This document shows, one piece after another, positions 24,676-59,155 of a stretch of DNA of 64,000 bases (position 1 is its first letter; each line of letters begins with the position of its first letter). The notes under the pieces were generated by a model, which was not told the DNA's origin, made no database searches, and saw only the letters and a list, made by a program, of their open reading frames with translations. The stretch spans positions 1 through 64,000 of the forward strand of contig JANXVF010000011.1 of assembly GCA_025351785.1 (NCBI GenBank). The letters run 5' to 3'. Source of the DNA: Flavobacterium sp. Lineage in GTDB: Bacteria > Bacteroidota > Bacteroidia > Flavobacteriales > Flavobacteriaceae. The position numbers were made by a program, and so were the translations under genes.

Positions 24676-26616
24676 ATGAATAAATTTGAACAATTAGGAT
24701 TGAGTGAATCGTTACTGAAGGCGATTTTAGATCTAGGATTTGATAATCCGACCGAAGTACAGGAGAAAGCGATTCCCCTATTATTGGAAAAAAATACAGA
24801 TTTAGTTGCGTTGGCTCAGACGGGTACAGGGAAAACGGCAGCTTTTGGTTTTCCAGTTATTCAGAAAATTGATGCTAACAATAGAAATACACAAGCATTA
24901 ATTTTATCTCCAACTCGTGAGTTGTGTTTGCAAATCACTAATGAAATTAAAAACTACTCAAAATACGAAAAAGGTATTAATGTAGTAGCAATTTATGGCG
25001 GTGCAAGCATTACTGAACAAGCACGTGACATAAAACGAGGAGCACAAATTATTGTAGCAACTCCAGGAAGAATGCAGGATATGATTAATAGAGGTTTGGT
25101 TAACATCACACAAATCAACTATTGCATCCTAGACGAAGCCGACGAAATGTTAAACATGGGTTTCTATGAAGACATTGTAAACATTTTATCTACAACACCA
25201 GACGATAAAAATACATGGTTATTCTCTGCAACTATGCCAGCCGAAGTGGCTCGTATAGCTAAACAATTTATGCACAGTCCAGAAGAAATTACAGTAGGGA
25301 CAAAAAATTCTGGTTCGGCAACAGTATCTCATGAGTTTTATCTTGTAAATGCCCGCGACCGATATGAAGCTTTAAAAAGACTAGCCGATTGTAATCCCGA
25401 TATTTTTTCTGTAATTTTTTGCAGAACTAAGCGAGATACACAACAAGTAGCAGAACGACTTATTGAAGATGGATATAGTGCAGCAGCTTTGCACGGCGAT
25501 TTATCTCAAGCGCAACGTGACTCGGTAATGAAATCTTTCAGAGGAAGACAAATACAAATGTTGGTAGCTACTGATGTAGCAGCTCGTGGAATTGATGTTG
25601 ATAGTATCACACACGTAGTAAATTATCAACTACCAGACGAAATTGAAACATACAATCACCGGTCTGGAAGAACAGGACGTGCTGGAAAACTAGGAACTTC
25701 AATAGTTATCGTAACTAAAAGTGAGTTGCGCAAGATTTCTTCAATCGAACGAATTATACAGCAAAAATTTCATGAAAAAACGCTTCCGTCAGGAATTGAA
25801 ATTTGTGAAATACAGTTACTACATCTTGCCACAAAAATAAAAGATACTGAGGTAGATCATGATATTGATAATTATCTTCCTGCTATAAATACTGTTTTAG
25901 AAGGTTTGTCAAAAGAAGAACTCATAAAAAAAATGGTGTCAGTAGAGTTTAACCGATTTATAAATTATTATAAAAAAACTAGAGATATTTCGGCTCAAAC
26001 ATCTGGAAATGAGAGACGAGAACGCGACGATCGTGAGCCAAGAGAAAATAATAATGGTGGTGCAACTCGGTATTTTGTAAATATTGGTTCACGAGATAAT
26101 TTTGATTGGATGTCTTTAAAAGATTATCTAAAAGAAACTCTTGATCTAGGTCGAGATGATGTATTTAAAGTTGATGTTAAGGAAGGTTTTTCATTCTTTA
26201 ATACTGATCCTGAACATACAGACAAGGTAATGGAAATTCTAAATAACGTACAATTAGAAGGAAGACGCATCAATGTAGAGATTTCTAAAAATGATGGTGG
26301 CGGAAGACGCGACCACAATGGTAGAAGTTCAGGCGGATTTGGCGGTGGACGTAGTTCTAGTGGAGGATTTAGAAGTGATAGAAATTCTGGAGGCGGCGGT
26401 TTTAGAAGCGAAAGAAGTTCAGCTCCAAGAGAAGGCGGTTTTAGAACTGAAAGAAGTTCGGCTCCAAGAGAAGGAGGTTTTAGAAGTGAAAGAACTACAT
26501 CGCCAAGAAGAGAACCAGGGTCGTCGCAAAGAGAAGCTTCATCAGACAGACAACCAAAACCATTTAAGGCTAGTGGTGATGAAACTGGAAGAGTAAAAAG
26601 ACCAAGAAGAAGCTAA
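24676..26616 (+). CDS. DEAD/DEAH box RNA helicase (DeaD/CsdA-like) with RG/RS-rich tail
   Basis: AQTGTGKTAAFGFP, LDEADEMLNMGF, FSATMPAE, HRSGRTGRAGK; DbpA-like RNA-binding domain; SGGFGGGRSSSGGFRS tail. Confidence 0.94.
   Translation: MNKFEQLGLSESLLKAILDLGFDNPTEVQEKAIPLLLEKNTDLVALAQTGTGKTAAFGFPVIQKIDANNRNTQALILSPTRELCLQITNEIKNYSKYEKGINVVAIYGGASITEQARDIKRGAQIIVATPGRMQDMINRGLVNITQINYCILDEADEMLNMGFYEDIVNILSTTPDDKNTWLFSATMPAEVARIAKQFMHSPEEITVGTKNSGSATVSHEFYLVNARDRYEALKRLADCNPDIFSVIFCRTKRDTQQVAERLIEDGYSAAALHGDLSQAQRDSVMKSFRGRQIQMLVATDVAARGIDVDSITHVVNYQLPDEIETYNHRSGRTGRAGKLGTSIVIVTKSELRKISSIERIIQQKFHEKTLPSGIEICEIQLLHLATKIKDTEVDHDIDNYLPAINTVLEGLSKEELIKKMVSVEFNRFINYYKKTRDISAQTSGNERRERDDREPRENNNGGATRYFVNIGSRDNFDWMSLKDYLKETLDLGRDDVFKVDVKEGFSFFNTDPEHTDKVMEILNNVQLEGRRINVEISKNDGGGRRDHNGRSSGGFGGGRSSSGGFRSDRNSGGGGFRSERSSAPREGGFRTERSSAPREGGFRSERTTSPRREPGSSQREASSDRQPKPFKASGDETGRVKRPRRS
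26396..26495 (+). repeat. Imperfect ~45-bp coding tandem repeat in the helicase tail (GGFR[ST]ERSSAPRE)
   Basis: ggcggttttagaagcgaaagaagttcagctccaagagaa / ggcggttttagaactgaaagaagttcggctccaagagaa / ggaggttttagaagtgaaagaac. Confidence 0.8.
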
Positions 26617-57513: not shown

Positions 57514-58902
57514 TTACAAATGAATCACCTCGCCATATGCATCGGCAACAGCTTCCATTACTGCTTCGCTCATTGTTGGATGCGGGTGAATTGTTTTTAA
57601 AATTTCATGACCTGTAGTTTCTAGTTTACGAGCTACGATTGCTTCTGCTATCATATCAGTTACACCTGCACCTATCATGTGACACCCTAACCATTCGCCA
57701 TATTTTGCATCAAAAATTACTTTTACAAATCCGTCAGGTGTGCCTGATGCTTTTGCTTTTCCTGAAGCCGAAAACGGAAATTTACCAATTTTTAATTCAT
57801 ATCCTTTTTCTTTGGCTTGTTTCTCGGTCATTCCTACCGATGCAATCTCTGGTGTTGCATATGTACAACCTGGAACATTACCATAATCTATAGGCTCTAC
57901 ATGAAGTCCTGCAATTTTTTCTACACAATTAATTCCTTCTGCAGAAGCTACATGTGCTAATGCCTGACCTGGTGTAACATCGCCAATAGCGTAATATCCA
58001 GGAATGTTTGTTTGTGCATAAGCATTTACTAAAATTTTATCCTTATCGGTTGCAATTCCCACTTCTTCTAGACCAATATTTTCAATATTTGTTTTTATTC
58101 CAACAGCAGATAATAAAATTTCAGCTTCTAAAACTTCTTCTCCTTTTGCTGTTTTTACAAACGCTTTTACCCCTTTTTGCGAAGTATCAATTTTTTCAAC
58201 AGATGATGATGTCATAATTTTAACACCTGCTTTTTTCATAGAGCGTTCCATTTGTTTCGAAATATCTTCGTCTTCTACAGGAACAATATTGGGCATAAAC
58301 TCTACAATTGTAACTTCTGTTCCCATAGCATTATAAAAATGTGCAAACTCTACTCCTATTGCTCCCGAACCAACAATTATCATAGATTTTGGCTGAGTTG
58401 GCAACGTCATTGCTTGTCTATATCCAATTACTTTTACACCATCTTGAGGTAGATTTGGCAATTCTCGCGAACGTGCCCCAGTTGCAATAATTATATGATC
58501 TGCCGAGTATTCGGTTACTTTTTTATCTTTGTCAGTAACATCAATTTTTTTTCCTGGTTTTAATTTTCCAAAACCATCAATCACGTCAATTTTATTTTTT
58601 TTCATCAAAAATTGAACGCCCTTACTCATATCGCCGGCTACACTTCTTGAACGATTTACAACAGCGTTGAAATCTTTATCATATTCTTTAATGGTTAAAC
58701 CATAATCGGAAGCGTGTTTTAAATAATCGAAAACCTGAGCCGATTTTAAAAGTGCTTTCGTTGGGATGCAACCCCAGTTTAAACAAACACCTCCAAGGCT
58801 TTCTTTCTCGATTACAGCAACTTTAAAACCTAGTTGTGAGGCACGAATTGCCGTTACATATCCTCCAGGTCCTGAACCTAAAACTATAATATCGTATTTC
58901 AT
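57514..58902 (-). CDS. lpdA: Dihydrolipoyl dehydrogenase
   Basis: GSGPGGYVTAIRASQLG, GGVCLNWGCIPTKALL, AIGDVTPGQALAHVASAEG, HPHPTMSEAVMEA. Confidence 0.96.
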   Translation of the reverse strand: MKYDIIVLGSGPGGYVTAIRASQLGFKVAVIEKESLGGVCLNWGCIPTKALLKSAQVFDYLKHASDYGLTIKEYDKDFNAVVNRSRSVAGDMSKGVQFLMKKNKIDVIDGFGKLKPGKKIDVTDKDKKVTEYSADHIIIATGARSRELPNLPQDGVKVIGYRQAMTLPTQPKSMIIVGSGAIGVEFAHFYNAMGTEVTIVEFMPNIVPVEDEDISKQMERSMKKAGVKIMTSSSVEKIDTSQKGVKAFVKTAKGEEVLEAEILLSAVGIKTNIENIGLEEVGIATDKDKILVNAYAQTNIPGYYAIGDVTPGQALAHVASAEGINCVEKIAGLHVEPIDYGNVPGCTYATPEIASVGMTEKQAKEKGYELKIGKFPFSASGKAKASGTPDGFVKVIFDAKYGEWLGCHMIGAGVTDMIAEAIVARKLETTGHEILKTIHPHPTMSEAVMEAVADAYGEVIHL

Positions 58903-59070
58903 TTTTTGCTTTTTTATTTGTTATTTGTAAAAAATGCAGTCGCAAAAGCTCGTGTCATTTTTTGCTTTTTTATTTGTTATTTGTAAAAAATGCAGTCACT
59001 CTTGCATGTATCATTTTTTTCAAAAGGTTATTTTATTTATTCAAAATACACTTGCAAAGGCTTATTGCAT
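58899..59070 (-). repeat. 56-bp-period tandem repeat upstream of lpdA carrying in-register ATGs
   Basis: Perfect 43-bp copies at 58899-58941 and 58955-58997 plus a degenerate third unit; minus-strand ATGs begin at 58902, 58958, 59014 and 59070. Confidence 0.92.
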
Positions 59071-59155
59071 TTATTGAGAAAATATATTTTTAACGTTGAG
59101 CGAAATTAATCATTTATTTCAAAAATACACTCCAGTAATTATTAAAATTTAATCG

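Follow-up and report, generated by a model that had tools for sequence, protein, structure and literature searches.

The stretch of Flavobacterium sp. DNA analyzed here (64,000 nucleotides, hereafter the window) carries on its minus strand the dihydrolipoyl dehydrogenase gene lpdA (57514–58902), a 462-codon ORF whose full-length relatives show 82–95% identity and which we regard as the probable host gene of an insertion. Directly upstream lies the top-scoring tandem repeat of the window. In agreement with the initial annotation, four minus-strand ATGs (59070, 59014, 58958 and 58902) were found exactly 56 bp apart in the window sequence, and the two units nearest the gene, unit 1 (58959–59014) and unit 2 (58903–58958), both on the minus strand, share a perfect in-register core of 43 bp, the ATGA after each unit included, and are identical at 48 of 56 positions overall. 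Two occurrences of this 43-mer were counted in the window, against none expected. The mini-ORFs of the two units, MIHARVTAFFTNNK and MTRAFATAFFTNNK, each closed by a stop codon, and the 11-nt gap AAAAGCAAAAA also read as claimed, and the third repeat (unit 0, 59015–59070, minus strand) is a decayed relative, as had been proposed. Unit 0 is identical to unit 1 at 31/56 and to unit 2 at 35/56 positions, levels that 20,000 mononucleotide shuffles reached at a rate of 0.0001 for unit 1 and 0 for unit 2, and it retains the fold AAAUGCA/UGUAUUU (-4.5 kcal/mol). A short-hairpin model (R1), whose training set includes window units 1 and 2, scored unit 2, an intact short-form element, at 49.9 bits (E 4.6e-8), unit 1, a second short-form copy, at 35.4 bits and, weakly, unit 0 at 16.6 bits (E 0.9). 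Unit 2 also matched a long-element model (R2), built without any lpdA copy, at 25.6 bits (E 0.024; L001 1520–1579). In unit 1 the inner stem is altered, CA..UG replacing GC..GC, and pairing is still possible.

Four parts can be distinguished in unit 2, all on the minus strand. Its left boundary is an NTGA, here ATGA (58955–58958), placed by comparison of empty and filled sites at lpdA (L014/L098 and L109/L144) and at xerD. It is followed by a hairpin, H1 (58937–58954), of the form CA-[CGA]-GC-UUUU-GC-[GAC]-UG, whose loop varies freely in relatives and whose stem pairing is mostly kept. Next comes an arm, CATTTTTT (58929–58936), complementary to AAAAAATG at the start of lpdA; across the leaders of 62 relatives the arm matches the start region better than chance. 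The right end, AAAAAATGA (58899–58907), as read from the sequence, holds the present lpdA start codon (58902–58900), which takes the same position as the start supplied by the element in long copies. The -7 consensus of Bacteroidetes promoters is TAnnTTTG, and a probable -7 box of lpdA, TAATTTCG, lies at 59101–59108 on the minus strand, a TTAAATTCGC-like box recurring upstream of lpdA in relatives; this candidate would probably put the repeats inside the 5' UTR. No further unit was found elsewhere in the 2.86-Mb Flavobacterium genome (G000, an assembly of 176 contigs, in which a copy may have been missed) by BLAST, by a pattern search with two mismatches or with the short-hairpin and long-element models. 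The window holds one other repeat of note, a 39-bp tandem repeat (26395–26508) in a DEAD-box RNA helicase ORF (24676–26616), within its Gly/Arg/Ser-rich C-terminal tail; this is an ordinary in-frame repeat.

Comparison of copy number at lpdA, which the initial annotation had suggested, showed that it does vary: the leaders of other Flavobacterium species hold 0–4 units at a spacing of 54–59 bp, the last of which lies ~25–30 nt upstream of lpdA. Most of the leaders examined carry a hairpin of the H1 kind, with tetraloops as different as TTTT, GAAA, GTTA, GCAA, GTAA and ATTT, and with stems that are lengthened in some units (for example, GGCCTTGCC and GCCGTTAGGC). Two near-identical lpdA leaders in a metagenome assembly (G137; L092 and L116) differ by one unit, reflecting either a strain copy-number polymorphism or contamination.

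Copies were also recovered at other genes, the names of which were read from the protein starts. Immediately ahead of lpxB, four species (L112, L113, L150 and L253) carry a hairpin of the type found at lpdA (type A), and 28 of 30 other lpxB leaders lack such an insert. The remaining two (L156 and L159) carry a different one, a further start-codon element of the same plan and with another stem (ATGAAATCGCC..GGCGATACCATATATGACC..CATATATGA) that also occurs at L365, L325, L327 and L412; L157 is an empty lpxB site. A looser pattern run over 300 Flavobacterium genomes gave far more matches than the reversed control, some of them chance matches within genes, at sites that precede purK, tgt, gcvP, murG, carA, a cysteine desulfurase, a dihydroorotase and other genes. 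With a strict 17-mer we detected a long form of ~90 bp in 67 of the 300 genomes, with a single reversed-control match in total, and this long form sits exactly on the starts of unrelated genes; it too occurs in tandem (L439). Elements of ~121 bp (L406, L410, L412, L418–L421 and L424) have a type-A-like hairpin, CGAGCGATAGCGA..GGCGAAGC, nested in the H1 region. The short and long forms most likely belong to one family, of which the window copy would be a distant member, because at purK (L237 and L239) a short type-A hairpin is fused to the right half of the long form and because R2 recognizes short lpdA copies in relatives (E 7e-8 in L114, 2e-6 in L010 and 1.5e-5 in L110). This link rests on the intermediates and on common anatomy, the window copy itself reaching just E 0.024 with R2.

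The abundance of the family differs strongly between genomes. Model and pattern searches provided all copy counts, and in eleven genomes chosen for having matches, and thus not typical, R2 found 31, 23, 20, 18, 16, 10, 9, 8, 6, 5 and 3 copies; it found none in G000. A one-mismatch pattern, about a dozen of whose loci were read individually, matched in 43 of 400 Flavobacteriaceae genomes and in 39 of 237 genera, with few reversed-control matches, and no element copy was found in the plasmids, phages and viral contigs searched. The suggestion in the initial annotation that the 56-bp unit is a small dispersed element delivering a start codon, to be traced by comparing it with this genome and its relatives, is supported by the relatives, where copies occur at unrelated gene starts; in G000, lpdA is the sole locus.

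The common order of parts is an NTGA target, hairpin H1, an arm CATnnn, an A-rich spacer of 25–27 bases and n'n'n'ATGA, the last being the new start of the host gene. Elements range from 55 to 120 bp, without a nuclease. The foot of H1 contains tandem G.A mismatches (GAGC..GCGA). The left end of long elements reads NTGA|AATGAGC and the right end GCGAATTACATnTGACC...n'ATGA, and alignment of element copies revealed no terminal inverted repeats (left ATGAAATGAGC, right CAACATATGA). RNAalifold, unprompted, predicted H1 together with a helix between the arm and the right end. In 84 of 89 long copies, the variable base of the arm can pair with the one that immediately precedes the new ATG (A-T 54, T-A 15, C-G 11 and G-C 4), the other five being exceptions, against a mean of 40 and a maximum of 58 in 10,000 shuffles, which ignore the shared ancestry of the copies; the left flank has no such link. 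The presence of four pair types across several subfamilies is strong evidence for arm/right-end covariation in these alignments. The short form behaves in the same way, the mean run of complementarity between arm and right end in 62 lpdA leaders being 3.47 (shuffles: mean 2.81, maximum 3.13), and that between arm and left side, the upstream ATG copy, being no better than chance at 2.45 (shuffles: mean 2.31, maximum 2.63). A pairing of AAAAATG/CATTTTT with the upstream ATG copy had been considered and was rejected, as it breaks down in relatives with unlike sequences on the upstream and downstream sides. The arm/right-end match lengthens to nine bases in L147 and L085 (CATTTTGTA/TACAAAATG), and a further subfamily of the same plan has the stem ATCGCC..GGCGAT, and CATATATG..CATATATG.

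Sites with and without the element could be compared directly. At xerD one species (G205) is filled and 26 readable orthologues are empty: the filled leader runs from AATAGCTTTACTTTGCTTCT into ATGAAATGAGC...CAATAT and then ATGAATTGG, and that of the nearest relative (G139) runs from AATAGCGTTACTTTGCTTCC straight into ATGAATTGG, a clean insertion at NTGA. Clean empty sites were also found at lpxB. At lpdA, an empty (L014) and a filled (L098) leader have near-identical 45-nt flanks up to the ATGA, and L109 and L144 differ by whole units between flanks identical at 49 of 50 positions, a difference that gain or loss by slippage may explain equally well. The same 94 bases are present at two unrelated genes in one genome (G296, L365/L373), and identical copies at two unrelated genes occur in another (G271, L367/L374). 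Empty sites together with identical copies at unrelated genes are, in sequence comparisons of this kind, the signature of a mobile element. The ATG at which a long copy ends opens an ORF of 60 codons or more in 85 of 89 distinct copies; among the exceptions, the ORF at L373 falls just short with 59 codons, a second element and then a gene come after L412, and at L411 a candidate start lies ~40 nt downstream. Chance placement fails to account for this, because only 37% of the ATGA sites outside coding interiors in the window (starts plus intergenic sites) are starts. The location may reflect either targeting or the survival of harmless insertions. The first base of the left flank is A in 85 of the 89 long copies, and the alternative starts GTG and TTG also seem to be used (GTGA in L366 and TTGA in L407), then being replaced by ATG.

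Taken together, these results make it probable (about 0.8) that the repeats at lpdA are a few tandem copies of a non-autonomous miniature insertion element that resides at start codons. Aligned copies place the family directly 3' of NTGA at gene starts, in the orientation of the gene. Comparison of filled with empty leaders shows that the 3' end of the element supplies a new A-rich leader and ATGA, leaving the ORF intact and the old start upstream, and the pattern of base changes shows complementarity between the arm and the right end of the same element, new ATG included. Arrays such as that of lpdA would arise because the right end recreates ATGA, at which another copy could insert at the same site, or between whose repeats slippage could gain or lose copies. 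A target-site duplication is indistinguishable from a target plus element end. The arm probably pairs with the right end as a step in recognizing the ends on single-stranded DNA, in the manner of the guide sequences of IS200/IS605 elements, rather than acting as a riboswitch. On the best reading the element would be mobilized in trans, and the most speculative step is that it moves, or once moved, with a putative transposase of NTGA specificity, which was not found at the Y1 loci of 12 genomes. That the element recurs at lpdA throughout a genus could be due to functional retention instead of mobility. We tentatively entertain, at less than even odds, the broader idea of a mobile-element class that targets the start codon itself, its own mobilization guided by the arm CATnnn against the n'n'n'ATG end, and that rewrites leaders genome-wide with genes left unbroken.

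Two other readings confine the array to lpdA or to translation. The initial annotation had proposed for it, among other ideas, a leader-peptide system, a chain of minicistrons coupling translation to lpdA. The mini-ORFs are indeed open in both window units, and MTRA(F/L/K)ATAF recurs in type-A units. However, neither length nor frame is conserved in relatives: type-A mini-ORFs extend from two codons (MT, then stop) to ~16, one unit being open to 32 codons and another running into lpdA, some units stop at once (MTRA or MTQA, then stop), and among 38 different readings several are truncated or frameshifted (for example, MARAVRRLHFVQITNK, then stop). This variation follows stem pairing, not codons; insertions in the stem such as GGCCTTGCC shift the frame, and the hairpin and the complementarity of the arm to the start codon persist. 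Long copies have ATG AAA TGA at the old start, a two-codon ORF, in place of the mini-ORF. The peptide recurs because the H1 DNA is conserved and is best read as a by-product of it; a translational coupling system is highly improbable. Somewhat less improbable, yet still poorly placed, is the view that slippage simply duplicated a unit in tandem at lpdA alone, without any mobile ancestor. The units are flanked by direct repeats (AAAAATGA), copies inside the arrays of several species are near-identical (L015, L033 and L125), L109 and L144 differ by whole units between almost identical flanks, and lpdA is the sole locus in G000. Slippage alone would, however, leave the same element at lpxB, purK and many other starts unaccounted for, as well as the different subtypes that stand side by side in tandem within single lpdA leaders (L085, L099, L134 and L147). 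As the initial annotation had allowed, slippage between the direct ATGA repeats on either side of each unit may have changed the copy number, and it is a likely source of such change within arrays. A two-gene regulon of lpdA and lpxB was dropped once further genes appeared.

The strongest competitor, though still unlikely, is a cis-regulatory 5' UTR RNA of lpdA and some other genes, in which the arm pairs with the start codon and hides it, H1 modulates this and extra copies tune expression. The arm/right-end helix does contain the new AUG, two full long elements fold better than their shuffles (z -2.5 and -4.6), and retention of an H1-type hairpin in most of the Flavobacterium lpdA leaders is in line with such a role. 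Against this, the same element stands before many unrelated genes that differ by genome, with clean empty sites, and the fold of the window copy leaves the lpdA start free, its stability falling short of significance (z -1.67 and -0.29). A regulatory role is in any case compatible with mobility, as a mobile element may acquire one. We retain the start-codon insertion element as the preferred reading.

Small non-coding insertion elements are a known kind; the replacement of the start codon and the covariation of arm and start distinguish this family. IS200/IS605-derived elements (PATEs and REP/REPIN, mobilized by Y1 transposases or RAYTs) are short and without an ORF, have a subterminal hairpin and no terminal inverted repeats, and insert beside a fixed tetranucleotide, an internal arm pairing with the end; guides of the IS608 type lie 5' of the hairpin. 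The start-codon family shares the small size, the absence of an ORF and of terminal inverted repeats, the subterminal hairpin, the adjoining tetranucleotide (NTGA, at its left end) and the pairing of an arm with the end, but its arm lies 3' of the hairpin, unlike IS608-type guides, and it sits on start codons and re-supplies one. A motif scan over 30 loci, with partial reading of the flanks (the transposase gene was placed in 4 of 25 loci), found Y1 transposase loci in 12 genomes to be without the element ends, and G151 has element copies and no Y1_Tnp match; a Y1 transposase as the partner was rejected, the loci tested sharing no ends with the element. Repeated palindromes (CCTCCAGCTAAAGCTGGAGG; GGCTTTAGCC..GGCTAAAGCC) border three Y1 transposase genes (L275, L276 and L291) and suggest that Flavobacterium has a REP/RAYT-type system. 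IsrB, a nuclease of the IS200/IS605 world, recognizes NTGA as its TAM and has an omega-RNA of roughly 300 nt (PMC9581776). The family likewise has NTGA (here ATGA, rarely GTGA or TTGA) beside its left end, as in HEARO and IsrB/IscB, but at 55–120 bp without a nuclease it is far shorter than that RNA, and cmscan with permissive E-values gave no match to HEARO (RF02033) in the window leader and 20 element loci. Because the Y1 ends are unmatched, G151 lacks Y1 and HEARO gave no match, we do not class the family with IS200/IS605.

Like MITEs such as Correia elements, the family is small, non-coding and dispersed in many copies, has clean empty sites and alters the leaders of genes, but it differs from them in the lack of terminal inverted repeats and in its near-strict start-codon location and orientation. 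Flavo-1 RNA (RF01705) is also flavobacterial, structured and near some of the same genes, but differs in sequence and position, its matches lying elsewhere in the loci and none over the element. These Flavo-1 matches (L244 1234–1314, L258 1031–1110 and L264 1136–1205) are well above the gathering score, near element-bearing genes (tgt and carA). No Rfam family covers the element in the window leader and 20 element loci, and no description of it was found in Rfam or among the open-licence papers searched, which for a literature search of that scope is weak evidence; the family is apparently undescribed so far.

Insertions usually damage genes, whereas the copies described here lie on start codons and replace them. 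Each host gene would thereby acquire another leader and another region for ribosome loading, which would feed regulatory variation across Flavobacteriaceae and also account for odd repeats and misplaced start annotations. The family points to a natural start-codon-specific insertion system, the enzyme of which can be hunted.
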